Part shown: one piece after another, positions 5,523 to 29,902 of the stretch
How the letters are laid out: each line of letters begins with the position of its first letter
Position numbering within the stretch: position 1 is the first letter of the stretch
Assembly (NCBI GenBank): GCA_029936965.1
Contig: JAPYRG010000019.1
Span: 6,168 to 39,359 of the forward strand
DNA: 33,192 nt
DNA from: Fidelibacterota bacterium
GTDB taxonomy: Bacteria > Fidelibacterota > Marinisomatia > Marinisomatales > TCS55
Direction of reading: 5' to 3'
Notes under the pieces: model-generated
Seen by the model: the letters and a program-made list of their open reading frames with translations, nothing else
The model's database searches: none
Told to the model about the DNA's origin: nothing
Made by a program: the position numbers and the translations under genes

Positions 5523-5559
5523 AAAAAAACAGGGTAAAAAGTATTTACCCTGTTTTTTT
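5523..5559 (-). terminator. Rho-independent terminator, perfect 16-bp stem
   Basis: A perfect inverted repeat has arms at 5523-5538 and 5544-5559, with a 5-base loop. The arms contain CAGGGTAAA / TTTACCCTG and are flanked by A-runs and T-runs, so it can work on both strands. It sits 31 bases past the stop of the minus-strand Ser/Lys/Gly-rich protein gene, whose transcript it should end. Confidence 0.85.
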
Positions 5560-5589
5560 GATAAGCAATTATAAAAATATTAAATCAAA

Positions 5590-6066
5590 TTATGGCTTAT
5601 CCCTTGAATCTGTTTCACCAGGATCACTTTTATCTCCGGATTCTTTAGAATCCCCAGCATTTGATTGTGATCCACTTGGTCTAGCTGATCCTGCGGCAGA
5701 AGATCCAGAAGCTTTAGAAGATTTTTTAGAAGATCTACTGAATAGTCTTCCAAGCAAACCTTTTTTGGCTTTTTTACCTGCTTTTGGTGCAGGAGCGGTT
5801 GTGCCGCTCATTCTAGAGCTATTTCCAGAAGGAGTTGCTTTACCACCACCAGCGCCACCTTTTTTCGATGCACTACTACCAGACCCTGGTGCAGTATCAT
5901 CGTTTTTAAGCCTAGCTGCACTGCCATCAGGAGAACTTTTCTTTTGTTCTTTCTTTACTGAGACTTTTTCGTCATTAGAACCTTTTTTTATACCACTAGC
6001 ATCCTGAGCATATACGAAACTGAACAAGAGGCTCAAAACGAAGATTCGAGAAATGAAATTATTCAT
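5590..6066 (-). CDS. Small secreted low-complexity Ser/Lys/Gly-rich protein, function unknown
   Basis: Exported protein of 158 residues that I do not recognise. A clean signal peptide (1-20, ending FVYA) is followed by Gln21. The mature part has almost no hydrophobic residues. It is dominated by Ser, Lys, Gly, Ala, Asp and Pro, with a basic cluster around 'KKAKKGLLGRLFSRSSKK' in the middle and an acidic, Asp/Glu-rich C-terminus, so it is very likely disordered. The start was set at the ATG at 6066 because AAGGAGGG lies three bases upstream; the frame continues 18 codons further upstream, but that extension would put charged residues before the signal peptide. A strong terminator follows it, and a CRP-like palindrome lies about 150 bases upstream. 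An ORF on the opposite strand here is a shadow created by its codon bias. Confidence 0.7.
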   Translation of the reverse strand: MNNFISRIFVLSLLFSFVYAQDASGIKKGSNDEKVSVKKEQKKSSPDGSAARLKNDDTAPGSGSSASKKGGAGGGKATPSGNSSRMSGTTAPAPKAGKKAKKGLLGRLFSRSSKKSSKASGSSAAGSARPSGSQSNAGDSKESGDKSDPGETDSRDKP

Positions 6067-6214
6067 ATTCCCTCCTTTTATTATGTTTGTTATTCCCTTT
6101 CTTACGCAAATAATATACATTTAAATTAATTATTTACCCTTAATCACGAGGTTTATTTACCATTGTAAAAGCAAACATATTATCATTATTTTGAAAAGGC
6201 AATATATTAAAAAT

Positions 6215-14162: not shown

Positions 14163-14753
14163 ATGAAGATAATTCTTGCAACCCATAACCGAGATAAAGA
14201 AAAAGAGTTACAGAACTCATTACAAGGGATAAATATAGAAATTTGTTCTTTATTTGACTTTCCTGAAATAGGAGATATTGAAGAGACTGGTACAACATTA
14301 CTAGAAAACAGTCTATTAAAAGCTAGGACAGTATTTAATATAACAGGAATACCGACAATTGCTGATGACACTGGTTTGGAAGTAGATTTTCTTGATGGTG
14401 CACCAGGCGTATATTCTGCTCGCTATGCAGGTAATAATGTATCGTACCAAGATAATGTTAATAAACTATTGATTAAATTAGATGGGGTTCCTCGTGAAAA
14501 AAGAAAAGCAAAATTTCGTACAGTAGTAACATATATTGATAAAAATGAAGAATTATGGACTGAAGGCCGTATTGATGGAATTATTTCTGAAAGCATAATA
14601 GGAGATGGAGGGTTTGGGTATGATCCAATATTCTTTGTTCCCCATATAGGAAAAACCTTTGCGGAACTTTCATCGGCTGAAAAGAATAAAATCAGTCACC
14701 GTGGGATTGCATTACAAAAACTTCGTAAAATTCTTATAAATGTGCTAAAATAG
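14163..14753 (+). CDS. rdgB: XTP/dITP diphosphatase (RdgB/HAM1 family)
   Basis: Cytoplasmic house-cleaning pyrophosphatase that hydrolyses non-canonical purine triphosphates (dITP, XTP, ITP) to monophosphates, keeping them out of DNA and RNA. The 196-residue length is standard. Family motifs are complete: the substrate-binding N-terminus 'LATHNRDKEKEL' (5-16), the acidic 'IADDTGLEVD' metal and catalytic segment, 'GVYSARYAG', 'GDGGFGYDPIF', and 'KTFAELSSAEKNKISHRG' near the C-terminus. It is 108 bases upstream of sprA on the same strand. The intervening leader carries palindromic and hairpin structure, so it may or may not share the sprA transcript. Confidence 0.96.
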   Translation: MKIILATHNRDKEKELQNSLQGINIEICSLFDFPEIGDIEETGTTLLENSLLKARTVFNITGIPTIADDTGLEVDFLDGAPGVYSARYAGNNVSYQDNVNKLLIKLDGVPREKRKAKFRTVVTYIDKNEELWTEGRIDGIISESIIGDGGFGYDPIFFVPHIGKTFAELSSAEKNKISHRGIALQKLRKILINVLK

Positions 14754-14860: not shown

Positions 14861-17800
14861 TTGAGAAAAGGGCTTTACGTCATTCTTGCATTTTTCATGA
14901 CCGTAATGTCGAGTCATTATGCTTACGGCCAACAGGAGGAGTCTGCCCTAACGTTACCTATTAGTTATCATATTCAATCTCCTTATGTGGTTTCTGCCTT
15001 CCCGGAAGTACCATTACCATTAAGTGTAATGAAAGACACCTTAGGACCACCAATAAACATATTAAATGTAAGCTATGGTGAACGGATTATTGATATCACA
15101 ATAGATAGCAGTTGGAAAGTTATATCTTTCACAGAATATGTTGATGATGAAATATTGCGGATTCCTTTTACTTGTTCTGTTGATTGGTATTTTAAACATA
15201 TGATTCAAGTAAATAGGGTTATGAACTTTATTGAATCATTTAATAAAGCAAATCAAGGAGATCAACGTTACACCGAACGTCAGGGTGGAAGATATTTGGA
15301 AATGGTTGGGATGGATATGGGAGACTTTGGAAGAGTTTCTCTTCGTGTTAATGGTAACATAAATATTAATGGAAAATTAGTCCAACAAGATCAAGAATTA
15401 GTTCGATCAAGCCTTAGGGAGACACAAAATACTCATTTGGAATTTGATCAGAAACAAGCAGTAAATATTGAAGGGAAAATTGGTGATCGTATAACAGTAA
15501 AAATGGACAGGGATTCTGAGCGTGATTTTGATTGGGAAAATAATATTCGTATTTCATATGAAGGAGAAGAAGATGATATTGTACAAAAGGTTGAGGCTGG
15601 TAATATTTCTTTATCCTTGCCTGCAACCCAGTATGTTACTTTTTCAGGACAGAATAATGGACTTTTTGGATTAAAAGCAATTTCTAAGCTGGGACCAGTG
15701 GATATCACAACTATTGCATCCATAGAGAAAACAAAAAAAGAACAACAAGAATACAAAGGGAGCAATGAATCTGCAGTTGTAAAAATCAAAGATAGTGACT
15801 ATATAAAGAATCAATATTTTTTCATTCATAATTGGTTTCGTAATGGCATAGATACCACACTTAGTGGAACATATATTAATGTTCCGCCATTCTATCCATT
15901 ATATGAAGGGTCTCATTTTGTTGGCAATATTATTATTAGAGATTTTGATTTATATAAGCTTGAATCAGCAAATGATGCAAGTACAGATCCGGGAATAGCA
16001 TATGCAGATCTAAGTAATATTGATAACACCGAAAGTCAGGAAGGTAATTTCAAAAGATTAGAGCCAGGTCAAGATTATTCTATAAGTAATGATCTGGGGT
16101 TTATTCGATTACGTAATCGATCATCAAATGAAGCTTTTGGATGTACATTTGTGTTGGCGAATAGACAGACAGGGGATACGTTGTTAGCGGTTGGAAGCGG
16201 TGTAAACGCTACTGATTCTACATCAAGTTTAATTTTAAAAATGATCAAACCAATCTCGCTAACACCTAGTCACTCAACTTGGGATTTAATGTTTAAAAAT
16301 GTATACTATATGGGCGCATCAAATATTAACAAAGAAGGCTTTGTTGTTAGGATCGTCAATCAACATCAAAATCCTCCATCTGAATATGATCTTGGAGGAA
16401 CACCCTATATTACTCAGTTTGGATTAGATAGTTTAAATGAAACTGGAGTTCGACAATCAGATGAGTTAATTGATATGGAAAACAGCAGTATCATTAATAT
16501 GGGAAGTGGCGAGTTAATGTTTCCAACTTACTATCCATTTGCATATGATTCATTAGATGGAGGTAATAAAAATATAGAACTACAAAGTGTGCTTGGTGAA
16601 GGAAAAATGTATACAACTACAACGCAAACTGAAATTAATAATGATAGTCGTTTTGAAATTCAGGTAGAATACACAAATCAGAGTTCAAATATTAATCTTG
16701 GGTTTATGATAGTCGAAGGAAGCGAACAGGTCTTTGTAGATGGATTAGAGTTAAAACGTGGCGTTAATTATCAGATAGATTATTTTTCTGGAACACTCAT
16801 TATGAATGAAGAATTAAATCCTAATGCAGCTTTAAAAATATTGTTTGATAAACATGAAGTAGTATCCTTTGATAAAAAAACAATTTTTGGAACACGTGCT
16901 CAAATGGATTTTGGTGAACGGTCATTTATAGGGGCAACTGCATTATATTTTAATCAGTCAGTAATGAATGAAAAGATAGAAGTTGGTTATGAACCAACAA
17001 GAAATTTTATTTGGGGAGTTAATGGTCGTTATGATCAACCCATTGACGGACTTACCAGGTTTTTAGATAAACTACCAATTATAAATACGGAAAAAACTTC
17101 ATCATTTTCTATTGAAGGAGAGATTGCACAGGTGATGCCAAACCCTAATTCAATTAATAACGCTGAAACAGGGGACCGCAGTGGTGTTGCTTATATAGAT
17201 GATTTTGAAGGGGCCAAACGCACTACATCTTTTCCTGTTCAACGAAGATTTTGGAAAACCTCATCACCACCATTACTGGGCTCATTAAACACGACTCTAA
17301 GCCATCGAAACAGGGCAAATATGTATTGGTATAATCCATATGTTCAATGGAGAACAAAAGATATTTGGCCTAATCAAGAGACATCGATTCGAGCACAAAA
17401 TGAAACAACAGATATTTTGGTAATGAATTATAAACCATTTAATCATCAATCAAATCTACCGAAGGACTCATTATGGGCAGGTATCATAACAACGTTGTAC
17501 TCAGGGGATTATGATCAAACTCAAACAAAATTTTTTGAGATTTGGGTTCGCAATAAAAATGATGCAAAATCAAAACTTAGCATTGATCTTGGGAAAATAA
17601 GTGAAGATTGGAATGGAGACGGATCTCTTAATACAGAAGATATTCCAGTGGCGGGTATGATTGGCGATGGATTATTGGATGACTCTGAAGATATTGGTTT
17701 AGACGGATGCGCTGATGAGACAGAAGATGGTTGGGGGGGGTGTTTAGAGTTTGGAGGAACATATAATGAATATTTCTCATCAGGAGAATCAGAATTAATA

Positions 17801-20800
17801 AATACAGCTAGCGATATTGATCCTAGTGATCCAAATGGGGATAATTGGAATTATAGCGAGGGAAGCAATGATTATACAAGAATTAATGGTACGGAAGGTA
17901 ATGCATTAGACGCAGGACGATATCCTGATACAGAGGATCTTGATAGGACAGGATTCTTGGATAAAACTAATGATTACTTTACAAAGACTTTTACGCTGGA
18001 TGATACTGCATATTTTTCTGGTGAAACAGTGAATAATGGACAGGCTACAGGTTGGAAACTATTTAGAATACCCTTAAGTCACTTTGAAATGGCAGATAGT
18101 ACCGGCAACCAAGAATGGAATGAAATTAAATTTTGTAGAATACGATTATCCGATACTACACAAACATGGATTCAGGTTGCTAAAATTGAATTAGTAGGAA
18201 ATGAATGGCAAGAACTTGGAATTGCAGCAGACTCATCTGAAGTATATAGCAAAGCAAACTCGGATAGTGTGTTTTCAGTATCAGTTATTAATACTGAAGA
18301 TAATGCCAACTATCAACCTCCAAAGGGAGTAAAAGGAGAATATGATCGTATAAATGAGATTCGTTCAAAAGAGCAATCACTCGTATTGAAATTTGAGAAT
18401 CTTGCGCCTAAACAAAAAGGCGCTGCGTTAAAAACCTTACTTAATTTATCAGGGGATAGAGCAAAAAGTTATCTAACATATGATAAATTGAAAATGTATG
18501 TGTATGGAAATAGCCCATGGATTCAGGATTCTGAAACGAGAGTAGAGTTTTTTATGAGATTTGGTCTTGGGGAAGATTATTATGAACTAATCCAACCTGT
18601 ATACCAAGGGTGGGATGAATCAGAAAATAGAAATACAATTAGTCTTAATTTAAATTGGCTCACCCAACTAAAACTCCACGACTTAACAAATGTGAAAAAA
18701 CTTAATGAAAATGATATGATAACTGATTCATCAGGAATCAAATATTATACATTTTATGATGATGAGGGTGTGCCTACTGGTAAACAGATAAGAATTAAAG
18801 GCAAACCAGCATTATCAAGAATAAAATTTTTTATGGTTGGTATTAAAAATATTTCTGACGAATGGATAAACGGTGAAGTGTGGATAGATGAATTACGATT
18901 AAGTGGTGTTAAAAAAGATAGAGGGGTTGCAATGAGATTAACATCAAAATTAAGTGTTGCTGATATTGCAAATACATCAATTACTTATAGTAGAAAAGAT
19001 GCAGATTTTCATGTGCTCCAACAACGGCTAGGAACAAATCAAACTGGAGAAAACTTTAACCTAAATACAAACTTTCAACTTCATAAATTATTACCAAAAT
19101 CATGGGGAATAAGTATACCTTTGAATTTGTCAATGACAAATTCATCCAATACTCCTAAATACTTTCCTGGTTCAGATGTCTTAGTTAATCAAGGAGAGGC
19201 GCCAGACTCAATACTTACAAAATCAACTGGATTAAATTTTAGTACATCCTTATCAAAATCTAGTAAATCTGATAACAAAATTATTCAGTATACGTTAGAT
19301 AAAATAAAGCCAAGTTTTACTACTAGTAGATCTTTATCATCAAATGAATTAAACAAGGAAGTATTGAATGAAAAATATTCAGGAAAAGTCAGCTATTCTC
19401 TTCCATTTGGCCGTGATAACTATATAAGCCCATTTAAATGGTTTAAACCAATTCCTTTATTAGGACAAAAATTAAGTGAAATACATTTTTATTATACTCC
19501 TTCAAACTTTAATACTTCATTGAACTTTAGTGAAAGTTTGAGCCAAAGAATTAAACGTGTTGGCGGGAAATCTCCTGATACATACAATTTTGGACTCAAT
19601 AGAAATTTTTCAATGGATTATATGTTAACAAATGGAATAAAGACAAAATATACGCGAGCTGTTAAAAGCGATATGCAAGATTATAGAGGGTATGCATGGT
19701 TAGCAATTAAAGATTTAGATCCAGGTATTGTAGAAAATATTAGTGAAAATCTATCAACTTCTTTCAACCCAACAATTTTCTCTTGGTTTAAGCCAAATAT
19801 GAATTATTCATCTGCATACTCATGGAATCAAGATAGAGAAAGCACTATAGGGGGAGCAAACATAGGAACGCAATTACGTTTTTCCTCTAGTATCGCATTA
19901 AGTTTAGCAAACATATTTGAGGTCATTTATAAACCACCTACAAAAGCTTCTACTGCGCCCAAAGGAAGATCTAGAAGAAGGAGGGCAAAACAGGAGGAAG
20001 AAAAAGTAGAAGAGAGGGTGCAAAAAGATATTCCTATCTTAACCTTTGCTCATGGATTTCTAAAGAAGATTAATCCAATTAATTTTAGTTATTCTGAAAA
20101 TCTAACAAGGACGGGCAGGGGCGTTATTGGAGATATCCCATTAGGATATCGATTTGGTTGGGAGCCTGATCATGGTTTACCTCATTCTGAAAAAATAGGT
20201 TCCGATATCGGGGCGTGGGATCACAAGCGCGATTTTTCTTTGCGATCCGGATTTAATCTTACTAGGAGTATTAGTACAAGTTTTAATTATTCACAAAATG
20301 TATCAACGAAAAGGAGCGGATCAGGAACTGAACAGCGAAATATGTCGCGTGATTATTTTGCATATGGTGAGAAATTGGAAAATGGACTTCCGCTTCCTGG
20401 ATGGAGTGTTCGTTGGTCGGGATTAGAAAAACTTCCTATTATTAAAAAGTTTCTGAGATCTCTTTCACTTGAGCACGGCTTTAGCGGAAAGGAAGTACGG
20501 GCTTGGCAATTTGAAAACTTTGCAGGTCCAAATATGCCTTTACTTGATTTAGAAACATTCATATCTGATTTTCAAGAATTTGAAAGATCATCCCGTGTAA
20601 ATACTAATTTTTCCCCATTAATTGGTTTAACCGCAAGTTTACAAAAGGGTATCTCGATGAATTTTAGACATAACCTTTCAAGATCATTGGATCGTGTACC
20701 AACAGGTATAACAGTTCATCGAGATAAAAGTTATACATCCAGCGCTAATTATAGCCATAGAGGAGGGATTACAATTCCACTTCCTTTTATGGAAGATTAT

Positions 20801-21061
20801 AAAATTCAAAATACTGTTAATTTTCAGTTTAACTTTGATATGAATGAGAGCGAAACTTTAGGTAGTAAAAATGGTGGTTTGGAATTTGGACAGACTGCAT
20901 TTAATTCAGGTTGGAAAACCGGTATTAGAATCACGTATACATTTTCTGCCAAAGTGAGTGGAAGTATGATTTATGGATACCATGAAAATGAATCCATGAC
21001 AACTGGAAAGAAAATTGATCGCGATTTTGGATTTGATGTGAATATTGCTATTACAGGATAA
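14861..21061 (+). CDS. sprA: SprA/Sov-family outer-membrane translocon of the type IX secretion system
   Basis: Giant outer-membrane barrel that forms the T9SS protein-conducting channel. It has 2066 residues, somewhat shorter than Bacteroidota SprA/Sov (about 2400-2500). A signal peptide (1-23, ending YAYG) precedes Gln24-Gln25. Recognisable SprA segments are the N-terminal region about 165-310 (with 'NININGKLVQQDQELVRSSL', 'IGDRITVKMDRDSERDFDW', 'VEAGNISLSLPATQYVTFS') and the hallmark 'GVAYIDDFEGAKRTTSFP' near residue 775. An Asp-rich, calcium-binding-like insertion (about 910-1030) includes two closely spaced Cys in 'GCADETEDGWGGC'. Long barrel strands fill the C-terminal half, which also has a very basic/acidic loop near 1700-1724 (RSRRRR then KQEEEKVEE). 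The start is TTG at 14861, seven bases after AGGAG; the next ATG would cut into the signal peptide. It heads a dense operon. Confidence 0.93.
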   Translation: MRKGLYVILAFFMTVMSSHYAYGQQEESALTLPISYHIQSPYVVSAFPEVPLPLSVMKDTLGPPINILNVSYGERIIDITIDSSWKVISFTEYVDDEILRIPFTCSVDWYFKHMIQVNRVMNFIESFNKANQGDQRYTERQGGRYLEMVGMDMGDFGRVSLRVNGNININGKLVQQDQELVRSSLRETQNTHLEFDQKQAVNIEGKIGDRITVKMDRDSERDFDWENNIRISYEGEEDDIVQKVEAGNISLSLPATQYVTFSGQNNGLFGLKAISKLGPVDITTIASIEKTKKEQQEYKGSNESAVVKIKDSDYIKNQYFFIHNWFRNGIDTTLSGTYINVPPFYPLYEGSHFVGNIIIRDFDLYKLESANDASTDPGIAYADLSNIDNTESQEGNFKRLEPGQDYSISNDLGFIRLRNRSSNEAFGCTFVLANRQTGDTLLAVGSGVNATDSTSSLILKMIKPISLTPSHSTWDLMFKNVYYMGASNINKEGFVVRIVNQHQNPPSEYDLGGTPYITQFGLDSLNETGVRQSDELIDMENSSIINMGSGELMFPTYYPFAYDSLDGGNKNIELQSVLGEGKMYTTTTQTEINNDSRFEIQVEYTNQSSNINLGFMIVEGSEQVFVDGLELKRGVNYQIDYFSGTLIMNEELNPNAALKILFDKHEVVSFDKKTIFGTRAQMDFGERSFIGATALYFNQSVMNEKIEVGYEPTRNFIWGVNGRYDQPIDGLTRFLDKLPIINTEKTSSFSIEGEIAQVMPNPNSINNAETGDRSGVAYIDDFEGAKRTTSFPVQRRFWKTSSPPLLGSLNTTLSHRNRANMYWYNPYVQWRTKDIWPNQETSIRAQNETTDILVMNYKPFNHQSNLPKDSLWAGIITTLYSGDYDQTQTKFFEIWVRNKNDAKSKLSIDLGKISEDWNGDGSLNTEDIPVAGMIGDGLLDDSEDIGLDGCADETEDGWGGCLEFGGTYNEYFSSGESELINTASDIDPSDPNGDNWNYSEGSNDYTRINGTEGNALDAGRYPDTEDLDRTGFLDKTNDYFTKTFTLDDTAYFSGETVNNGQATGWKLFRIPLSHFEMADSTGNQEWNEIKFCRIRLSDTTQTWIQVAKIELVGNEWQELGIAADSSEVYSKANSDSVFSVSVINTEDNANYQPPKGVKGEYDRINEIRSKEQSLVLKFENLAPKQKGAALKTLLNLSGDRAKSYLTYDKLKMYVYGNSPWIQDSETRVEFFMRFGLGEDYYELIQPVYQGWDESENRNTISLNLNWLTQLKLHDLTNVKKLNENDMITDSSGIKYYTFYDDEGVPTGKQIRIKGKPALSRIKFFMVGIKNISDEWINGEVWIDELRLSGVKKDRGVAMRLTSKLSVADIANTSITYSRKDADFHVLQQRLGTNQTGENFNLNTNFQLHKLLPKSWGISIPLNLSMTNSSNTPKYFPGSDVLVNQGEAPDSILTKSTGLNFSTSLSKSSKSDNKIIQYTLDKIKPSFTTSRSLSSNELNKEVLNEKYSGKVSYSLPFGRDNYISPFKWFKPIPLLGQKLSEIHFYYTPSNFNTSLNFSESLSQRIKRVGGKSPDTYNFGLNRNFSMDYMLTNGIKTKYTRAVKSDMQDYRGYAWLAIKDLDPGIVENISENLSTSFNPTIFSWFKPNMNYSSAYSWNQDRESTIGGANIGTQLRFSSSIALSLANIFEVIYKPPTKASTAPKGRSRRRRAKQEEEKVEERVQKDIPILTFAHGFLKKINPINFSYSENLTRTGRGVIGDIPLGYRFGWEPDHGLPHSEKIGSDIGAWDHKRDFSLRSGFNLTRSISTSFNYSQNVSTKRSGSGTEQRNMSRDYFAYGEKLENGLPLPGWSVRWSGLEKLPIIKKFLRSLSLEHGFSGKEVRAWQFENFAGPNMPLLDLETFISDFQEFERSSRVNTNFSPLIGLTASLQKGISMNFRHNLSRSLDRVPTGITVHRDKSYTSSANYSHRGGITIPLPFMEDYKIQNTVNFQFNFDMNESETLGSKNGGLEFGQTAFNSGWKTGIRITYTFSAKVSGSMIYGYHENESMTTGKKIDRDFGFDVNIAITG

Positions 21062-21067
21062 TATATA

Positions 21068-21988
21068 ATGAGATTATTAATTAAAAATTTTATATGCTGT
21101 TTGTCAATTGTAGTAATTATTACATGCAATGAGTCAGTGCCAGATTTTGATCAGAATAGTGCCTACCAATTTCTATTAGATCAATGTGATTTTGGTCCTC
21201 GTAATCCAGGGTCTGTGGGATATAATAATTGTAGAGAATTCCTGCTAAAAACGCTTGGTGGTTATTCGGATACAGTTTTTACGCAACCCTTTGTTATAAA
21301 TGATATTGATGATAAAAAGTATGATTTAAGTAATATTATTGCTCAATATAATATAAACAGCAATTCCCATTTGTTAATTGGTGCACATTGGGATACAAGA
21401 CCTTGGGCTGATAATGATTTGAATATCCAAAAACATAATCAGCCAATTATAGGTGCTAATGATGGAGCTAGTGGAGTTTCAGTTCTTTTAGAATTAGCAA
21501 GAATATTTCATGATAATCCTCCGCCAATTAGGGTGTCTCTTGTCTTATTTGATGGAGAAGATATGGGTAGATCTGGAATCCCTAAAAGCTATGCAAGAGG
21601 ATCGCAGTTTTTTGCAAAAAACCTTCCAATAAACACGCCTGATGAAGCAATTATATTAGATATGATCGGAGATAAAGAACTACATATTCCTATTGAGCGC
21701 TATTCATATCAACAAAATAGAGATCTAGTCAAAAAACTTTGGTCTTTAGCAAAAGAATTAAATTTGGAAGCTTTTGAATCAAGAATTATTCACACAATAT
21801 TTGATGATCACGTTCCTCTATGGCAAGAAGCAAAAATACCAGCGATAGATATAATCGATTTTAATTATCCTAACCGATATAGCAACTATTGGCATACATC
21901 GCAGGATACCCCACATAATTGTTCAGCAGAAAGTTTAGGACAAGTAGGCAGTCTTTTAGTTCATTATATTTATGGAAGCAAGAAATGA
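21068..21988 (+). CDS. M28-family enzyme, glutaminyl-peptide cyclotransferase-like, probable lipoprotein
   Basis: A 306-residue exported enzyme with the M28/glutaminyl-cyclase fold. Motifs are 'GAHWDTRPWAD' (105-115), 'GANDGASGVSVLLELA' (with Asp132), 'LFDGEDMG' (E164, D165), 'AIILDMIGD' (D198) and 'YWHTSQDTPHN' (H276). The D132, E164/D165 and H276 set matches the single-zinc site and catalytic acid of glutaminyl cyclases; the length and the 'HWDTRP' motif also favour a cyclase over an aminopeptidase. Such an enzyme converts N-terminal Gln to pyroglutamate. The N-terminus is hydrophobic and ends in I-I-T-C (Cys20), an atypical lipobox with Thr before Cys, so membrane anchoring is likely but not certain. 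It starts six bases after sprA. Many exported proteins in this window begin with Gln when mature, a fitting substrate pool. An M28 aminopeptidase is the alternative. Confidence 0.85.
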   Translation: MRLLIKNFICCLSIVVIITCNESVPDFDQNSAYQFLLDQCDFGPRNPGSVGYNNCREFLLKTLGGYSDTVFTQPFVINDIDDKKYDLSNIIAQYNINSNSHLLIGAHWDTRPWADNDLNIQKHNQPIIGANDGASGVSVLLELARIFHDNPPPIRVSLVLFDGEDMGRSGIPKSYARGSQFFAKNLPINTPDEAIILDMIGDKELHIPIERYSYQQNRDLVKKLWSLAKELNLEAFESRIIHTIFDDHVPLWQEAKIPAIDIIDFNYPNRYSNYWHTSQDTPHNCSAESLGQVGSLLVHYIYGSKK

Positions 21989-22848
21989 GTTTTATCTGTA
22001 AAATATTTAAACATTTTACCATTATTTTTACCTCCATCATTTTTTTTTATGGATGCCCTGGTTCTTCTGATAATAGCGATATAGATACCCCATTAGGTAA
22101 TTTGCAATTTACTTATTTACAGGATGATCGCATTCTTTACTTTGCAATTGAGGTTGAACCAAGTATTAATAGATCTCCATTAGAAAGCACAGTATTATAT
22201 TGGTATGGAACAGATACTACGGTTTCGCCAGATAATTTATTGTTAAATGATGAAGGAGAAAGTGGAGATATAATAAGAGGGGATGATTTATATTCTTTAA
22301 AAATTTTGAATGACACAATATTTTTAGCGAATCCAATCTCATTAGAAGATACAGGAAAAGTTCATATGAAATTTCAAGCTAATTATGGGAATGGTTCTTC
22401 ATTTATGTTTAGAGATTCGTTCTTTTTAGGAAATATTATACCACAATTACAAGACATTATTGCTCCAAATACTATAGTTAGGCCGACGGATAATAGTGTA
22501 ATATTTAAAGTTGTTAAAGCTAAAGCATATGATGCAAATGGACTAGACGATATACGAAGAGTAGGCTTTGTTTCATATCATGTTGAAGGCGATTCTTTTC
22601 TTAATAAAGGGGACTTAATTAATCTTTATGATGATGGCAGCGAAGTTATTATTTATGAACCAAATTTTACTAGCGGCGATTCAATAGCAAATGATGCAAT
22701 ATATAGTTTTCGCGTTCCCATATTTGGTTCAGGGAATGTAGATCCTTCTTTGCAAACGAAAACGGGCACTTTCAATTGGATTTTTGATGCCATGGATATG
22801 TCTAATTCTTATTCGGATACAGTTATTCATAGGGTAATTGTAGAATGA
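21985..22848 (+). CDS. Lipoprotein with two anchor-X-like beta-sandwich repeats, function unknown
   Basis: Predicted lipoprotein of 287 residues, not assigned to a named family. The signal peptide ends in F-Y-G-C with Cys24 as the lipidation site. The mature part is beta-rich and contains two similar motifs, 'LNDEGESGDIIRGDDLYSLK' (about 83-105) and 'LYDDGSEVIIY' followed by 'SGDSIANDAIYSFRVP' (about 212-245). The pattern (DDG, GD, ND/GD, YS/YSF) recalls 'choice-of-anchor X' domains of envelope lipoproteins, so it may be two tandem immunoglobulin-like domains. The ATG overlaps the preceding stop as ATGA, and the gene overlaps the next one in the same way, so all three are translationally coupled. 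Its place between the cyclase and the PorV genes suggests a role in the secretion machinery, but the sequence alone gives no function. Confidence 0.75.
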   Translation: MSFICKIFKHFTIIFTSIIFFYGCPGSSDNSDIDTPLGNLQFTYLQDDRILYFAIEVEPSINRSPLESTVLYWYGTDTTVSPDNLLLNDEGESGDIIRGDDLYSLKILNDTIFLANPISLEDTGKVHMKFQANYGNGSSFMFRDSFFLGNIIPQLQDIIAPNTIVRPTDNSVIFKVVKAKAYDANGLDDIRRVGFVSYHVEGDSFLNKGDLINLYDDGSEVIIYEPNFTSGDSIANDAIYSFRVPIFGSGNVDPSLQTKTGTFNWIFDAMDMSNSYSDTVIHRVIVE

Positions 22849-24539
22849 AGCGATTTATTTTTTATATAGTATTATTATTTAATACAGACCTTATATATGC
22901 TCAAAAGTTGTTTCCTTCTGATTATGCTTATCGTTCTGTAATTGCTGATTCTACAGATTCATTATTATTAAGTACGAATACAATGCTCAGCAATGTAGTT
23001 ACAGAAGTAATACTACAGGCAGACAACTTGGTTTGGTTAGGCACAGGTCTAGGAATTAGCATTATTAGTGACTCACTTTCTGTTAAGACATTACAAGACA
23101 CTTTGGATTTGACTAATGGCTCCTATACCACTAGGATTCCAAGAGGAGGAATATCTGCAATGACAACAGGCGATCAGGGTGGTCCCTATGAAAAATTTAT
23201 GTTTGCAGCAGCAGCAGGTAGTGAAAATGATATTCCAATTGGAAAGGGAATAGTATTCACGACAGATGCGACCGATAGTACAATAAATTGGATCTATTAC
23301 GATCAACCCATAGATGATGCCTTATCAGATACGATACCGTTTGGTGATATTGGTTTTGTGGCCGTTCTTCCTGTTACTGTGCCACAAGCTAATGTTACTT
23401 ATGATATGGATCTTTCCGAAGAATTTGCATGGACAGCAAGTTGGGCAGGCGGACTACGCCGGTTCAAATTTAGTGATCAAGTATGGGAACGAGTTCCTCT
23501 TCCAATGGATAACCAGTATGAATTAACAACCTGCAAGGATACTTCCTATATACGAATAGGAGGAAAATACGTCTTAAAAGATTATTATTTGAATCCCAGA
23601 GATCCACTTGATGGCGGGAATCATAACCATAAAGCATTTTCAGTATTAAGCTATAGTGATACAATTTGGGTTGGTACAGCAAACGGCATAAACCGTGGAA
23701 TTCTTGGATCCGGGAATTGTATTGATTGGAAACATTATTCATACCCTATGGATAATTTATCTGGTAATTTTGTTGTTGGATTAGAAATTCAACGATTGAA
23801 TGGAAAACGAATTATTTGGGCAGCTACTGTAAATGCAGATGACCCAACGGAAAAGCGCGGATTAAGCTATACAATAGATGATGGTTTATCATGGAATACT
23901 GCATTATTAGGTGAAAGGATTTACAATATTGCTGCATTTGATTCTTTAGTGTTTGCTGCATCAGCAAATGGTCTTTGGAAAACAGAGGATGGAATTAACT
24001 GGGCTTTATATAAGCCAGCGCATCAGGCAATTCCTATTCCAAATACGGCTATATATGACCTAGATGAAGTATTGGCAGATGAAGTCTATAGTGTAGCATT
24101 TGATAATCGTTCATATTATGGTGACCGCTCAATCTGGATAGGAACAGGAGATGGTGCAGCTCATTCATATGATCTTGATGGGTTAAGCTGGAAAATCTTT
24201 CGAGCAGAATATGATATCAATGAGGATTATGCCTACCCAAACCCCTTTTCCCCATATACTCATAATGTACTTAATGATAATGGATATGTACGTTTTCATA
24301 CGAATGAATGGTCCGGTACATTTGTTATTGATATTGATATATATAATTTTGCAATGGAAAAAGTGTATGCTACATCATTCGATAAACGTATTTCATCATC
24401 AGGCACATTAAAATGGAATGGTCGTGATCAACAGGGGGTTTATGTTCATAATGGTGTTTATTTTGTAAAGCTTACATATCCTGAAAACCAAAGTAGTAAG
24501 CCATCACCTCATTGGGTTAAACTGATTGTGGTAAAATAG
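22845..24539 (+). CDS. Secreted beta-propeller-like protein with C-terminal FlgD-like/T9SS-type sorting module
   Basis: Exported protein of 564 residues. A signal peptide (1-19, ending LIYA) precedes Gln20. The body (about 20-455) has repeated Trp/Gly blade-like strands such as 'LVWLGTGLGISIISD', 'EFAWTASWAGGLRRF', 'IWVGTANGINRGIL' and 'SIWIGTGDGAAHSYD', as in two-component-regulator or sialidase-type beta-propellers. Residues about 460-564 form a FlgD-Ig-like C-terminal module beginning 'YPNPFSP' and ending 'GVYFVKLTYPENQ...KLIVVK', similar to type A T9SS sorting domains. A propeller plus C-terminal domain encoded inside a T9SS operon recalls PorZ of Porphyromonas, a surface component of the sortase complex; that equivalence is inference, and simple cargo is the alternative. 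It overlaps the preceding gene by ATGA and directly abuts the PorV gene. Confidence 0.72.
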   Translation: MKRFIFYIVLLFNTDLIYAQKLFPSDYAYRSVIADSTDSLLLSTNTMLSNVVTEVILQADNLVWLGTGLGISIISDSLSVKTLQDTLDLTNGSYTTRIPRGGISAMTTGDQGGPYEKFMFAAAAGSENDIPIGKGIVFTTDATDSTINWIYYDQPIDDALSDTIPFGDIGFVAVLPVTVPQANVTYDMDLSEEFAWTASWAGGLRRFKFSDQVWERVPLPMDNQYELTTCKDTSYIRIGGKYVLKDYYLNPRDPLDGGNHNHKAFSVLSYSDTIWVGTANGINRGILGSGNCIDWKHYSYPMDNLSGNFVVGLEIQRLNGKRIIWAATVNADDPTEKRGLSYTIDDGLSWNTALLGERIYNIAAFDSLVFAASANGLWKTEDGINWALYKPAHQAIPIPNTAIYDLDEVLADEVYSVAFDNRSYYGDRSIWIGTGDGAAHSYDLDGLSWKIFRAEYDINEDYAYPNPFSPYTHNVLNDNGYVRFHTNEWSGTFVIDIDIYNFAMEKVYATSFDKRISSSGTLKWNGRDQQGVYVHNGVYFVKLTYPENQSSKPSPHWVKLIVVK

Positions 24540-25478
24540 ATGAGAAGTTATATCATGATCGTCGTTATTTTATTTTCATCAATTTATGGATCAGACTATG
24601 CAAGTTATTCCGGTGCATTTTTACGGATGGGTACTTCTGCTAGATCATTAGCGATGGGAAGTGGTTTTACAGCAGAAATTGATCAGGGGTTTGCTGCGTA
24701 TCATAACCCTGCGACTCTGGCGTTTATTAATAAAAGACAAATTGGGTTTTCTTATCATTCATTAAATCTTGATCGAAGGCTTATGATGTCAAGTATATCT
24801 ACCAGCTTACCTCCTACTGCAGGGCTGGGTGTTGCTTGGATAAGTAGTGGAGTTGATAATATTCAAGGTCGCTCAACTTCTGGATATAAAACGCAAGAGT
24901 TGTCAACAAGTGAAGATGCAATATTTATCAGTTTTGGACAAAGAATTACTCCTTGGCTTTCACTTGGTATCAATGTGAAAATACTAAACCATCAACTTCC
25001 AATGAATGAGAGTCAATTAGCTGGAAAAGGGACTGGATTTGATATTGGATTTATGCTACTATCAGAAGAAAAATTAAACTTTGCTTTTGTTATTAAAGAT
25101 TTAAACACTAATTATCAATGGAATACCGGACAAGTCCTTGAAGGAGAGGGACGTATTTATAAAGAATCTTTTCCAACTATGTATCATTTTGGAACAACAT
25201 TTACTTTTCAACAAATTTATATTGTAGGTGATATTGGCGTTGTAGCTAATCAGAAAGAAATATTAGGCACTAAATTAAGATTGGGTGGAGAATATCGTTT
25301 TTCTGATAAATATTTTATTCGTGGTGGATTTGGTGATTCAAGATTTTCTTTAGGAGCAGGATTAAATTTTACTTTTTTGAAAACAAATGATGCATTTTTT
25401 GATTATGCTGTAGTAGCGGAACCTCATTCCGTTTCCCAAGGATTAATTCATGTGTTTACATATGCTTTTAATTTCTAG
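24540..25478 (+). CDS. PorV/PorQ-family outer-membrane protein (T9SS accessory barrel), PorV-like
   Basis: Outer-membrane barrel of 312 residues, FadL-like in type. A signal peptide (1-17, ending SIYG) is followed directly by the family signature 'GAFLRMGTSARSLAMG' (25-40) and 'FAAYHNPATLAF' (51-62). The rest alternates barrel strands, such as 'QIGFSYHSLNL', 'LGVAWISSGVDNI', 'ISFGQRITPWLSLGINVKIL' and 'LRLGGEYRFSDKYFIRGGFG'. In Bacteroidota, PorV binds T9SS cargo at the SprA channel and shuttles it to the attachment complex, so its presence four genes after sprA fits a dedicated secretion operon. The ATG immediately follows the TAG of the propeller gene. I call it PorV-like because of the FLRMG..AR..AMG motif; orthology to PorV itself is not proven. 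Confidence 0.87.
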   Translation: MRSYIMIVVILFSSIYGSDYASYSGAFLRMGTSARSLAMGSGFTAEIDQGFAAYHNPATLAFINKRQIGFSYHSLNLDRRLMMSSISTSLPPTAGLGVAWISSGVDNIQGRSTSGYKTQELSTSEDAIFISFGQRITPWLSLGINVKILNHQLPMNESQLAGKGTGFDIGFMLLSEEKLNFAFVIKDLNTNYQWNTGQVLEGEGRIYKESFPTMYHFGTTFTFQQIYIVGDIGVVANQKEILGTKLRLGGEYRFSDKYFIRGGFGDSRFSLGAGLNFTFLKTNDAFFDYAVVAEPHSVSQGLIHVFTYAFNF

Positions 25479-26337
25479 ACATATTTTATATTTATTTATC
25501 TTTGTTAGTTTTGGATACAGCTTAGGCACACAATTTTTATCTGTTCCATCAAGTGCAATAGAATTAGCATTTGGCCCCAGTCCTCTTTTTGGTAGTTTAA
25601 CGCTAAATAATCCTGCATTGCTTAATGCTCCATCCCAAGGAGTTGCATTGAATATTTCTTATGGATCTTGGTTGAATAATATTTCAAACTCATCTTTTTC
25701 TTTAGCATCAAAAATAGGTCGTGGAAATATTGGGTTAAATATCAGGCATATGGGGGTCAGCGATCTTGAGCTTAGAAGCAACCGGCCCACAGATCACCCA
25801 TTAGCAACTTTTAGCTCAAGTTCATTCGCTGCGGCTAGCAGTTATTCCCAAACTTATGGGGCTATAACCATTGGAGCCACTGTTCGCTATATATTAATTC
25901 AATTATACACAGAAAATGTTTCTGGAATGACATTTGATGGAGGGATTACACGTTCTTTTGGCAAGAACATTGATTTAGGTTTTTCTATATTAAATACAGG
26001 ATTTATTAATAATACAGATAGTTATAACCCAGTTCTTCCACTTCGTTTTTTATCAGCACTATCCTATCAATTTCCTGCATCAAAATGGGGACATAAAATT
26101 TGTTTATCAGCGGAAAAATCGTCGCTTGTTAATGGATCAATTATTCGAGTTGCCAGTGAAACAAAATTTGAAAAGTTTGATCTTCGCTTTGGAACGCAGT
26201 CTTCAAATGAAGTAACAGTTGTTTCTGGTGGTTTTGGGATTCGATTAGGATTATTAAATTTTCATTATGGTATTCAGATTGGATCTCAGCATTTAGGTCT
26301 TCCGCAAATGCTTGATATTTCAATAAAATTACCATAA
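25450..26337 (+). CDS. Second PorV/PorQ-family outer-membrane barrel protein, PorQ-like
   Basis: Exported barrel of 295 residues related to PorV/PorQ proteins. The N-terminus is a hydrophobic signal (to about 25). It is followed by 'LSVPSSAIELAFGPSPLFG' and 'LNNPALLNAP' (NNPA at 53-56), the degenerate counterpart of the PorV signature. Strands such as 'GVALNISYGSWLNNIS', 'NIGLNIRHMGVSDLEL' and 'GAITIGATVRYIL' complete the barrel. In Bacteroidota, PorQ is part of the PorU-PorV-PorQ-PorZ attachment complex. The gene overlaps the preceding PorV-like gene by 29 bases. The start at 25450 is favoured because AAGGA (25438-25442) lies seven bases upstream; an in-frame ATG at 25462 is the alternative. 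The stop overlaps the next start by one base (TAATG), so translation is coupled in both directions. Confidence 0.78.
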   Translation: MCLHMLLISRHILYLFIFVSFGYSLGTQFLSVPSSAIELAFGPSPLFGSLTLNNPALLNAPSQGVALNISYGSWLNNISNSSFSLASKIGRGNIGLNIRHMGVSDLELRSNRPTDHPLATFSSSSFAAASSYSQTYGAITIGATVRYILIQLYTENVSGMTFDGGITRSFGKNIDLGFSILNTGFINNTDSYNPVLPLRFLSALSYQFPASKWGHKICLSAEKSSLVNGSIIRVASETKFEKFDLRFGTQSSNEVTVVSGGFGIRLGLLNFHYGIQIGSQHLGLPQMLDISIKLP

Positions 26338-27149
26338 TGCTGTTTAATCGTTTAAAAATCCTTTTTGTTTTAATTATTGTATTATTGTCCGTTTGTATTC
26401 TTCTTGTATTGAAGTCACGAACTGAAGAAACAAAAACCCTTACGGTACCCCTTCCTCAATCAACGCCTATTATTGAAGAAATAACGCTTGGAAATATTAT
26501 CATTATTATTGATGATTTTGGATATAGAAATGATGAAGTGTCTGAAGGGTTTTTAACTCTTGATGCGGATATAACCCTTGCCGTAATTCCAGGACACAAA
26601 AATAGTAAACTATTCTCCGAAAAAGCAAATAAGAGGGGTTATGAGGTTATAATCCATATGCCCATGGAATCTACTGCCGATACGCGTGGTGAGATAGAAT
26701 ACATACTTACTGAGTCTATGACTAGTAGTGAAATTGAACAAAGAGTAGAAAAAGTAATTTCCGAATTCCCAGAAGCAGTGGGGTTAAATAATCACCAAGG
26801 GTCAAAAGCAACTGCTGATAAAAGAATAATGAATATTGTAAGCAATGTATTAAAACGTCATGGAAAATATTTTGTTGATAGTCGAACTACTACCCAAACA
26901 GTTGCGGAGGACATTATGCGTACAAGAGGCGTCCCCACAGCAAGAAGACACGTATTTCTCGATAACGATGATGACATAAATAAGATTCGTGAACAACTAT
27001 ATAAGTTGGTTGATAAAGCAGAAACTAAAGGCAACGCGATAGGTGTTGGTCATGCAAAAAATTCAACTCTTCAAGTATTAAAAAATGAGATTCCAAAGTT
27101 GAAAAAGAATGGCTTTAAATTTCAATTTGCATCTTTCGCTGTAAAATAA
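26337..27149 (+). CDS. Divergent polysaccharide deacetylase family protein (YibQ-like)
   Basis: A 270-residue protein with an N-terminal transmembrane or signal-anchor segment (about 5-25) and a periplasmic domain of the divergent polysaccharide deacetylase family. Family motifs are 'NIIIIIDDFGYRND' (about 53-66), 'ADITLAVIPGHKNS', 'YEVIIHMPMES', 'GLNNHQGSKAT', 'FVDSRTT' and 'FLDND'. The Asp-Asp and His residues correspond to the metal site of NodB-type deacetylases, but the biochemical activity of this divergent group is not established. Relatives often sit beside the periplasmic EnvC/CtpA genes, which are absent here. Its start overlaps the PorQ-like stop by one base, so it is expressed with the secretion genes and may act on cell-wall or surface glycans. 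Confidence 0.88.
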   Translation: MLFNRLKILFVLIIVLLSVCILLVLKSRTEETKTLTVPLPQSTPIIEEITLGNIIIIIDDFGYRNDEVSEGFLTLDADITLAVIPGHKNSKLFSEKANKRGYEVIIHMPMESTADTRGEIEYILTESMTSSEIEQRVEKVISEFPEAVGLNNHQGSKATADKRIMNIVSNVLKRHGKYFVDSRTTTQTVAEDIMRTRGVPTARRHVFLDNDDDINKIREQLYKLVDKAETKGNAIGVGHAKNSTLQVLKNEIPKLKKNGFKFQFASFAVK

Positions 27150-27152
27150 CTC

Positions 27153-28127
27153 ATGCCAATACTATGTAAAGTTCATCGTGGAGATTTTATTGAAAGCATG
27201 CATGTTGGGTTTGTTGTAGTTGTTGATGCGAAAGGTGAAATCCTTTATAGCAATGGTGATGCACATTATTTAACCTGCGTACGTTCTTCATTAAAGCCCT
27301 TTCAGGCTTCTGCATCAGTGAAAGCTGGAGCTACAAAGCATTTTAATTTTACTAAAGAAGAAATTGCGCTTATGTGTGGATCGCATAATGGTGAAGATGT
27401 ACATGTAAATACGGCAATGAGCATGTTGCAAAAAATTGGATATGATATATCGTATTATGAATGTGGCGCTCATTCTCCATATGATAAAGAATCTAAAAAG
27501 GCATTATTATATAATGAGGAGAAACCAAATCCTTTACATAATAATTGTAGCGGTAAGCATGCGGGTATGCTCTCCTTAGCTAATTATTTACAAGAAGATC
27601 CCAAAGGATATACTGATGAAAATCATCTTGTACAAAAGAAAATAATAGAGCAAGTAAAACGTTTTTCTGAACTAGAAGAATTTCCTATTACTATTGATGG
27701 ATGTAGCGCTCCTGTTCCCTTTCTTCCATTATATAATCTTGCTCTTATGTATCAAAAATTTGCCAGCACTGATTATGATGAATTAAATATATTGTATGAT
27801 GCTATCATATCTAATCCATATCATATTGCTGGTAAAGATCGATTTGATACAGATTTTATTAAAGCAATGAACGGGAATGCTGTTACCAAAGTTGGAGGAG
27901 AGGGAGTCCGCGGACTTGGAATTCGAACTTCCAAAGGCGATGCATACGGGATAGCAATAAAAATAATAGATGGGAACCAGCGATGTAATCCAATAGCTAC
28001 AATAGCAATATTGAAAGAACTAAAGTTGATTAGTGAAGAACAAGTAGAAGCTTTACAGATTTATGATAATATCAAATTACAAAATCATCGAGGGATTGAA
28101 GTCGGATCGATTCAGGTAGAATTATAA
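27153..28127 (+). CDS. L-asparaginase II family amidohydrolase (Rhizobium-type)
   Basis: A 324-residue enzyme of the asparaginase II family typified by Rhizobium etli, unrelated to the E. coli AnsA/AnsB fold. It hydrolyses L-asparagine to aspartate and ammonia. Conserved elements are 'VRSSLKPFQASA' with the Ser45-Lys48 pair, 'MCGSHNGED', 'HNNCSGKHAGML' with the Cys-x-x-Lys pair, 'TIDGCSAPVPF' with the third conserved Cys, and 'GGEGVRGLGI' near the C-terminus. These match the catalytic Ser/Lys and the metal-linked Cys/Lys residues described for the Rhizobium enzyme. No signal peptide is present, so it acts in the cytoplasm. It follows the deacetylase-like gene by three bases and precedes the nuclease by two. 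Being in the operon of secretion genes it is functionally out of place, probably a metabolic passenger. Confidence 0.93.
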   Translation: MPILCKVHRGDFIESMHVGFVVVVDAKGEILYSNGDAHYLTCVRSSLKPFQASASVKAGATKHFNFTKEEIALMCGSHNGEDVHVNTAMSMLQKIGYDISYYECGAHSPYDKESKKALLYNEEKPNPLHNNCSGKHAGMLSLANYLQEDPKGYTDENHLVQKKIIEQVKRFSELEEFPITIDGCSAPVPFLPLYNLALMYQKFASTDYDELNILYDAIISNPYHIAGKDRFDTDFIKAMNGNAVTKVGGEGVRGLGIRTSKGDAYGIAIKIIDGNQRCNPIATIAILKELKLISEEQVEALQIYDNIKLQNHRGIEVGSIQVEL

Positions 28128-28129
28128 TA

Positions 28130-29902
28130 ATGTATATAAAATATTTTTTTATAATATGTTATGTTGTAGTAAGTAGTGTTTTATCGCAGTCCAATCATAC
28201 AATTTTGACATACAATCTTTTGAATTATGATGATGAGGATGATCGAGAACCCTATTACCAATTAATTATTAATGAGATTCAGCCAGATATTATTGTTTGT
28301 CAAGAGGTGAATACGGATAATGGATTTAATCATTTTTTAAATGATGTATTAAATATTGCCCAACCAAATGAATGGATGGGAGCTGAATTTACTAATCAGT
28401 CTGCAAGTCAAGATATTGCACTATATTATAAGTCACAATATTTTAATTACATTAGCACATCACTTGTTAATACAGCCCAAGGATCAGGCACAAGGAATGT
28501 GGTGGAATGGGTTCTCGAACATGTAGAATCTTCTGTTCAATTCCGCGTGTACGGAGTCCATTTGAAGGCCAGCTCTGGACAAAGTAATGCCCAGGAACGA
28601 CTTGCTGAAACTACAATCCTACGTAGTTATTTGAATAATTTGTCATCAGGGGCTCATTTTATTGTATGTGGTGATTTTAATATTTATAGCAATAGTTCCA
28701 CATCAGAACCTGCATTTGATATGCTAACAGTTGCTGGAGATAATGTTATTGGTCAACTATTTGACCCTATTAATCGTATTGGTGAATGGCATGCGCCTAC
28801 AAGCGAAACAGGTTCAGAATGTGAATTTGCAGATGTACATACTCAATCTCCTAGAACTACGCAATTTGGAGGTGGAGCAAATGGAGGAATGGATGATCGG
28901 TTTGATTGGATATTTGCTTCCTCTTCTGTGATGGAAGAATCCTATGAAATGACATATATTGAAAATACATATACTGCTTTTGGTAACGATGGTCAGCATT
29001 GTAATGAAGCAATTAATAGTGGTACCAATAGCGCTGTAAGTGAAGAAATGGCCAATGCTATACATGCAGCATCTGATCATTTACCTGTGTTTGCTGATTT
29101 TCAATTTCCAAGCGGAGATGAATCAGATTATCATGTAGTTATTTCGGAAGTAATGCCAAATCCTTCTGCCGTATCTGATTCGTATGGAGAATGGTTTGAA
29201 ATTATTAATATGGATTCTATTACAATTGATTTGAATGGATGGACTGTTATGGATGGAGAAAATGACTCGCATGTAATCAGTTCTAGTATTGAAATCCAAC
29301 CAGGTCAGTATATGGTGTTAGGCCGAAATGGAAATGAAAGTGTAAATGGTGGTTATGTTTCTGATTATACTTATTCATCATTTGCATTAGCAAATAGTGA
29401 TGATGAGATTATATTATTGGATCAAGATGAAAAGGTTGTAGATGATATTTCTTATGGAGAAACATTTCCCTATTCAAGCGGTGTTTCCATGTATCTGATC
29501 GATCATACTAGCGATAATACTATCGATTCTAATTGGGTAGCATCATCAATGTTGTATGGTGATGGAGATTTGGGTACACCTGGAAGAGCTTGGAATGATA
29601 GCATTGTAGTTTCTACAATAAATGATCATTTATTGCCTAATGAGTTTGAATTATACGCACCATATCCTAACCCATTTAATTCAACTACTCAGATTTCATT
29701 TTTAGTAAATCATACAACTTTTGTTTCACTAAATATCTACGATATTAATGGAAGATTAGTGCAAAATATTTATCATGCAAAAACGACTCCTGGATATTAT
29801 CAATCCATATGGGAAGCAAATAATGCACCAAGTGGTATATACTTTCTTTCACTTGAATCTGAAAAGAAAATAATAACACATAAATTGATGTTAATGAAAT
29901 AA
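28130..29902 (+). CDS. Extracellular endonuclease/exonuclease/phosphatase-family nuclease with lamin-tail and T9SS sorting domains
   Basis: Secreted nuclease-like protein of 590 residues. A signal peptide (1-19, ending SVLS) precedes Gln20. The EEP domain (about 22-325) keeps its metal and catalytic motifs: 'TYNLLNY', 'VCQEVN', 'YGVHLKASSG', 'VCGDFNIY' and 'SDHLPVFADF'. A lamin-tail domain (about 335-450, 'ISEVMPNPS', 'EWFEIINM', 'LNGWTVMD') follows, as in many extracellular nucleases. The C-terminus (about 505-590) is a type A T9SS sorting module: 'LYAPYPNPFNSTTQISF', 'SLNIYDINGRLV' and 'SGIYFLSLES...KLMLMK'. It is therefore a likely cargo of the SprA channel, probably degrading extracellular DNA or phosphodiesters for nutrient gain. 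It is the last gene of the dense sprA cluster; an 83-base gap follows. Confidence 0.9.
   Translation: MYIKYFFIICYVVVSSVLSQSNHTILTYNLLNYDDEDDREPYYQLIINEIQPDIIVCQEVNTDNGFNHFLNDVLNIAQPNEWMGAEFTNQSASQDIALYYKSQYFNYISTSLVNTAQGSGTRNVVEWVLEHVESSVQFRVYGVHLKASSGQSNAQERLAETTILRSYLNNLSSGAHFIVCGDFNIYSNSSTSEPAFDMLTVAGDNVIGQLFDPINRIGEWHAPTSETGSECEFADVHTQSPRTTQFGGGANGGMDDRFDWIFASSSVMEESYEMTYIENTYTAFGNDGQHCNEAINSGTNSAVSEEMANAIHAASDHLPVFADFQFPSGDESDYHVVISEVMPNPSAVSDSYGEWFEIINMDSITIDLNGWTVMDGENDSHVISSSIEIQPGQYMVLGRNGNESVNGGYVSDYTYSSFALANSDDEIILLDQDEKVVDDISYGETFPYSSGVSMYLIDHTSDNTIDSNWVASSMLYGDGDLGTPGRAWNDSIVVSTINDHLLPNEFELYAPYPNPFNSTTQISFLVNHTTFVSLNIYDINGRLVQNIYHAKTTPGYYQSIWEANNAPSGIYFLSLESEKKIITHKLMLMK

Follow-up and report, generated by a model that had tools for sequence, protein, structure and literature searches.

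Which part of a type IX secretion system (T9SS) is encoded when sprA, the gene of its outer-membrane translocon, heads a run of six genes in a member of the Fidelibacterota, and what could power export there? The T9SS is usually described as a machine of the Bacteroidota, in which export is powered by the GldLM/PorLM motor. Our window, the whole stretch of 33,192 nucleotides that was analyzed, corresponds to bases 6168-39359 of contig 8 of a genome of 2.14 Mb (50 contigs, 96.65% complete). Searches of open-access papers found none combining T9SS and SAR406, and one incidental match with Marinimicrobia. We propose that the six genes are probably the T9SS outer-membrane operon of the Fidelibacterota, in which a core of SprA and glutaminyl cyclase (QC) is joined to a PorZ:PorQ-type anchor with an Ig-domain lipoprotein, in a setting where GldL and GldM were not found.

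The six ORFs are all on the + strand and are separated by gaps of 6, -4, -4, 0, and -29 bases, values that agree exactly with the ORF coordinates (Table 1). The tightly coupled run described in a first-pass annotation of the sequence was thereby confirmed in its positions and gaps, and it is longer than claimed, extending past barrel 2 to 29902 with gaps of -1 (deacetylase), 3 (asparaginase), and 2 (endonuclease). The order of deacetylase and asparaginase is retained at many loci, and in the window's order the deacetylase gene extends the operon in tight linkage. The endonuclease-like protein scores 46.5 bits against TIGR04183 (cutoff, 23), which identifies it as a CTD-bearing T9SS cargo, and the ORF after it has a weak C-terminal match (21 bits) to the PorZ model and no match in a Pfam search. 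Upstream, the rdgB-like gene is the constant neighbor of sprA, separated from it by a median of 71 bases across 71 loci; it is linked to sprA but is probably not a part of the T9SS.

Table 1. Features of the sprA operon and its flanks, in window coordinates
Feature	Position	Strand	Basis
rdgB-like (XTP/dITP diphosphatase-like)	14163..14753	+	name from sequence
sprA/sov, T9SS outer-membrane translocon, 2066 aa, TTG start	14861..21061	+	TIGR04189, F. johnsoniae SprA homology
type II (bacteroidal) glutaminyl cyclase QC (predicted)	21068..21988	+	Pfam M28, nearest PDB, zinc ligands
lipoprotein, two Ig/FnIII-like domains, ATG start	21985..22848	+	alignment, AlphaFold, Foldseek
single beta-propeller + C-terminal sorting-type (CTD/FlgD-like) domain, PorZ-like	22845..24539	+	AlphaFold, Foldseek, profile
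PorV/PorQ-family outer-membrane barrel 1	24540..25478	+	NF033709 above cutoff
PorV/PorQ-family outer-membrane barrel 2	25450..26337	+	NF033709 below cutoff
divergent polysaccharide deacetylase	26337..27149	+	PF04748, 233 bits
asparaginase II-like	27153..28127	+	PF06089, 348 bits
secreted endonuclease-like, lamin-tail domain + type A CTD, cargo	28130..29902	+	PF03372, PF00932, PF18962, TIGR04183
probable further exported protein, CTD-like C-terminus, Gln after signal peptide	29986..32127	+	weak PorZ-model match

The operon is real and phylum-wide. In the SprA tree, the window falls among the Fidelibacterota, beside a genome of the same genus (SprA 92% identical), and the named relatives that share the arrangement are Candidatus Neomarinimicrobiota/Marinimicrobia records, in agreement with the Marinimicrobia origin initially suspected. 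SprA is above cutoff in 221 of 245 Fidelibacterota genomes, and some SprA match is found in all 94 near-complete ones. The common order is rdgB-sprA-QC-(prmA)-lipoprotein-propeller-two barrels, with rdgB-sprA-QC at the cluster head in the 41 loci read, apart from a few exceptions (L042 is without QC), and with the propeller gene present in 36 of these 41. The linkage between sprA and the propeller gene is more than chance, since the latter lies downstream, on the same strand and within 12 kb in 93/93 genomes listing both on one contig (they are on separate contigs in 16 further genomes), and since the lipoprotein/propeller junction is exactly -4 in 40/58 loci, drawn from two collections in which a few genomes are counted twice. 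A PrmA-like gene is often found between QC and the lipoprotein; the unlabelled ORF of ~280 aa seen there in several families looks PrmA-like by its sequence motifs and was not counted as a T9SS part. Within the phylum, three exceptions depart from the order, namely f25, where the propeller gene lies away from sprA, f8, where no lipoprotein was found at locus L059, and f9, discussed below. The annotation had called for a check of this order across Marinimicrobia and other FCB genomes; these counts show it conserved in the former, and parts of it recur in the latter: two Calditrichota loci have the lipoprotein-propeller-barrel-barrel block after sprA (L098, also with QC, and L121), and a KSB1 locus (L086) has sprA-QC. 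The neighbors of sprA in the Bacteroidota loci read are different, as had been supposed.

Several components tie this locus to a T9SS. The sprA assignment stands, with 810 bits against the TIGR04189 equivalog (cutoff, 200) and a match to the F. johnsoniae SprA structures 6h3i and 6h3j (E about 1e-72); the protein has a signal peptide followed by Gln (YAYG/QQEE). The genome searches that the annotation had called for located a PorU sortase elsewhere (G000:C10:88665-91904; 608 bits, cutoff 420; C25 domain, 247 bits) and further cargo, with about 45 CTD-region matches. Among 40 genomes sampled, PorU is above cutoff in all Fidelibacterota outside f9, f16, and f19, as well as in Calditrichota, KSB1, and Zixibacteria; in f16 and f19, the matches are weaker and below cutoff. 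The likeness to the Bacteroidota systems (P. gingivalis Por, F. johnsoniae Gld/Spr) thus comprises SprA/Sov, the C25 sortase PorU, PorV-family barrels, and type A CTD cargo; the differences are that sprA here shares an operon with QC, lipoprotein, propeller, and barrel genes and that GldL and GldM were not found. In some bins, the gene content crosses these lines: locus L009 (G164) has a Bacteroidota-like SprA (2362 bits) in a Fidelibacterota bin, loci L079-L082 (G166, G102) are GldM genes in Fidelibacterota bins, and L119 (G263) is a Fidelibacterota-type sprA locus in a bin labelled Flavobacteriales. These are probably mixed bins, or else cases of transfer.

The two barrels were thought to include PorV, the cargo shuttle. 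Kinship with the PorV/PorQ family holds, barrel 1 scoring 95.4 bits against NF033709 (cutoff, 90) and barrel 2 scoring 56.2 bits, below the cutoff but with an E-value of 4e-15. The PorV label does not hold: the barrels score 44 and 17.8 bits against the PorV equivalog (NF033710; cutoff, 250), and the best PorV-like protein tested, at 187 bits, is encoded at another locus (L240:2183-3538). Both are also below the PorQ cutoff (NF033711; 48 and 39.5 bits versus 220), their profile scores placing them far from PorV and slightly nearer PorQ, and a PDB sequence search with both gave no match. We propose a PorQ-like role for barrel 1. The genome has 17 PorV-family matches. Most of the paralogues directly follow a large gene whose CTD match is weak (L241, L243, L244, L247, L248, and L249, own genome), as if each barrel had its own cargo, and these pairs resemble the type B cargo/PorP-SprF shuttle pairs of F. 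johnsoniae (PMC12618676). The PorV-like genes of L240 and of the f9 genome G058 both lie beside an apparent TRAP transporter gene.

The f9 genomes, mostly of 0.7-1.0 Mb, branch inside the window's order in the SprA tree and provide a natural deletion series in which the core is kept and the anchoring module is lost. They retain rdgB-sprA-QC, and we found a propeller match in 0/24 and a full-length PorU in 0/10 of them; in G058, which was read whole in pieces, neither the lipoprotein nor the operon barrels were found, and two PorV-family barrels are present, one PorV-like (150 bits) and one beside a CTD gene. This joint loss, our strongest evidence, comes from one lineage and perhaps from one event; it suggests that the export core (SprA and QC) is separable from an anchoring module (lipoprotein, propeller, and barrels) lost together with PorU. 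At 1.0 Mb, G058 (L186-L239) keeps a 6.1-kb sprA though only three CTD proteins were found in it: one has a metalloprotease domain, one has LVIVD/FG-GAP repeats, and the gene of the third stands in line with one for a TonB-receptor-like protein and one of the PorV family.

The point likely to surprise specialists is the motor. Of the two absences that the first-pass annotation had named as telling against a T9SS, motor genes and further cargo, the first was seen for GldL and GldM, whereas cargo and a sortase were found. GldL was above cutoff in 0/57 near-complete Fidelibacterota genomes, with five weak matches of at most 24 bits and none in the genome of the window, while 4/4 Bacteroidota controls were positive; two Calditrichota, two KSB1, one Zixibacteria, and one Rhodothermales genome were also without a match above cutoff. 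GldM was found in 2/245 Fidelibacterota genomes, G102 (at the end of a small contig) and G166 (5% contamination), which are probably contaminants, and in 5 of 21 named genomes, namely four Bacteroidota and the mixed-looking bin G263. The search covered two components, GldL and GldM, with models built on Bacteroidota, which strongly divergent homologs could escape. At the level of these models, the Fidelibacterota have a type IX system without a recognizable GldLM motor, so the energy source would be some other proton-channel complex, a GldLM pair that has diverged beyond recognition, or none.

That the phylum has an ordinary Bacteroidota-type T9SS, with a GldLM motor and a GldKN ring too divergent for the family models, seems to us unlikely, and it is the rival that survives best. 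In its favor, SprA, PorU, and cargo were all found, GldL and GldM are short and could drift, and the SprA of the window shares only about 25% identity with the Bacteroidota-like SprA of L009; moreover, the GldM model may be narrow, because the SprA-bearing genomes G253 and G254 (labelled Bacteroidetes) and G255 (Rhodothermales) gave no match either. The low ceiling of the GldL scores across all 57 genomes argues against it. So, non-decisively since GldL is beyond the reach of that Pfam family, does the count of MotA/TolQ/ExbB proteins: three in the window's genome and one each in the tested f9 genomes, the G058 protein belonging to an ExbB-ExbD-ExbD set. Should SprA in f9 draw its power from a proton channel of this family, that single protein is the only candidate, a role that it may hold by elimination and within the reach of the family models.

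A more tentative reading, possible though short of probable, is that the whole phylum, and probably the Calditrichota too, has a sortase-bearing T9SS without a GldLM-type motor, in which SprA would be driven by a shared ExbB-ExbD or other rotary complex, such as the phylum's non-flagellar FliF/FliG-MotAB cassette, or would do without a dedicated motor, the streamlined relatives being near-minimal (SprA, PorV-like shuttle, QC, and the three cargo proteins found). A channel, sortase, and cargo found phylum-wide without a recognizable motor would, if true, separate the essentials of SprA export from additions for gliding or power. The cassette (L171:12408-19890, or G000:C42:110407-117889, and L258-L277) reads LP(CarboxypepD_reg)-TPR-outer-membrane barrel with TPR-MotA-MotB-C-terminal part of FliF-FliG, with a FliG of about 312 aa, and it is complete or nearly so in 19/20 loci from many Fidelibacterota families; gliding and T9SS power are guesses as to its use. 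A role for it as an obligatory T9SS motor is not supported, because f9 and f8 have SprA and the genomes listed for them have no FliG match.

The gene after sprA had been called a glutaminyl-cyclase-like T9SS enzyme, and its identity holds. It matches Pfam M28 and has a lipoprotein-type signal (IITC/NES), and its nearest PDB structures (3gux, 3tc8, 6qro, and 4fuu) are Bacteroidota glutaminyl cyclases. D132, D165, and H276, which were equated with the zinc ligands Asp149, Asp183, and His299 of PgQC from motifs and alignment rather than from superposed models, are invariant in 65 relatives, and W275 is conserved in 60/65. The single-zinc Asp/Asp/His set, including the bacteroidal-specific second Asp (PgQC Asp183), the Trp before the ligand His, the lipoprotein-type anchor, and the Gln after signal peptides all liken it to PgQC. 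As predicted from these residues, it is a bacteroidal type II glutaminyl cyclase, and the zinc ligands and nearest structures rule out an M28 aminopeptidase. Whereas the PgQC gene shares a three-gene operon with PG_2158 and hemG (PMC10653852), this one directly follows sprA.

Its part in the T9SS is another matter. With one crude signal-peptide rule applied alike to all groups, Gln follows the predicted cleavage site in 35% of cases in the window's genome, 38% in an f9 genome, 27% in other Fidelibacterota, and 34% in Bacteroidota, our positive control, figures of which only the between-group comparison counts because the absolute values are underestimates (~71% for Bacteroidetes according to Bochtler et al. 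[PMC5837995]). Neighboring positions gave 0-11% in the same groups, and Gln after the cleavage site was found in 0/10 cases in four f16-type loci and in 0/5 in E. coli. The Q-rule, reported as a feature of Bacteroidetes and not common to the whole FCB group (PMC5837995), thus appears to hold in Fidelibacterota, here with its enzyme encoded beside sprA. QC acts on exported proteins generally (PMC5837995, PMC10653852), and because it stays beside sprA in f9 without the anchoring module, it is probably the general Q-rule enzyme rather than a part of the T9SS.

The operon nominates the propeller protein and the lipoprotein as two partners of the SprA channel. The propeller protein, predicted by AlphaFold (pLDDT 88.9, pTM 0.85) to consist of a single propeller and a CTD-type domain, has by eye a signal peptide followed by Gln (IYA/QKL). 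Foldseek ranked two-component sensor propellers first and PorZ (5m11) 13th (E 8.6e-11), and an alignment profile gave 72 bits to sensor propellers, in many short stretches, and 34 bits to 5m11, over the last blade and CTD. The nearest folds by both methods, the double propellers of the hybrid two-component sensors BT4663 and BT4673, differ in that ours is single, secreted with a CTD, and without a sensor kinase. In P. gingivalis, PorQ anchors PorZ, which co-purifies with Sov (PMC5562754, PMC8754138), and our locus resembles that pair in that a CTD beta-propeller protein is encoded beside a PorV/PorQ-family barrel, with the extra feature of a lipoprotein gene overlapping the propeller gene. A true PorZ was rejected: the score against NF052228 is 21 bits, in the C-terminal part only (cutoff, 260), and the model has one propeller where PorZ has two seven-bladed propellers and a CTD. 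Given the single propeller and this score, we call the protein PorZ-like; the likeness is in the predicted fold, and its function may be PorZ-like as well. The candidate component of the annotation is therefore a propeller with a sorting domain, as proposed, but not of an unknown kind. The lipoprotein had no family-model match above cutoff; its lipobox Cys24 is invariant in a 30-sequence alignment, and its AlphaFold model (pLDDT 92, pTM 0.60, with the relative domain placement uncertain) gave FnIII/Ig folds in Foldseek.

PorZ is itself exported by the T9SS, and the CTD-type C-terminus would equally suit a propeller protein that is plain cargo co-expressed with the channel. This we judge improbable, for the gene is single-copy in most of the phylum and conserved in 80/84 genera, while cargo genes vary widely, and it is overlap-coupled beside the lipoprotein and two barrels in nearly all; the cargo and component roles are in any case compatible. 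That the lipoprotein, propeller, and barrels are unrelated to the T9SS and merely share a stable operon with sprA, as the linked rdgB, prmA, deacetylase, and asparaginase (for which we know of no T9SS role) and the general action of QC might suggest, is very improbable given the overlapping junctions retained across two phyla, above all that of lipoprotein and propeller, the absence of both propeller and PorU in f9, and the coincidence that a PorV/PorQ family and a PorZ-like fold beside sprA would then represent.

Our proposal of a Fidelibacterota outer-membrane operon is based on gene order, families, predicted folds, sequence signatures, joint loss, and two motor models without a match. Against it stand the low PorZ score of the propeller and its sensor-like nearest folds, the barrels below the PorQ cutoff, the restriction of the joint loss to one lineage, and the separate propeller of f25. 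From this basis, we infer complex formation, the roles of the partners, glycolipid delivery, and the energy source. SprA would be the channel exporting CTD proteins, on which QC would cap the N-terminal glutamine exposed by signal peptidase (the Q-rule). PorV, encoded at another locus, would extract the CTD cargo, and PorU, also encoded elsewhere, would cleave and attach it. The propeller-CTD protein would be held by one or both barrels in a PorZ:PorQ-type surface subcomplex and may supply the anchor glycolipid to PorU, as PorZ does in P. gingivalis. The Ig-domain lipoprotein would be its close partner, bridging or perhaps tethering the propeller near the channel.

Two further ORFs of the window, outside the operon, encode exported or lipoprotein-like products. 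One (7260-9515, +) specifies a lipoprotein-like product of 751 aa that combines a bacterial Ig domain with propeller repeats of the WD40-like (PD40) type. The other (5590-6120, -) specifies a small exported low-complexity protein, rich in Ser, Lys, and Gly, with Gln after its signal peptide; a long open frame (5558-6007) lies on the opposite strand.
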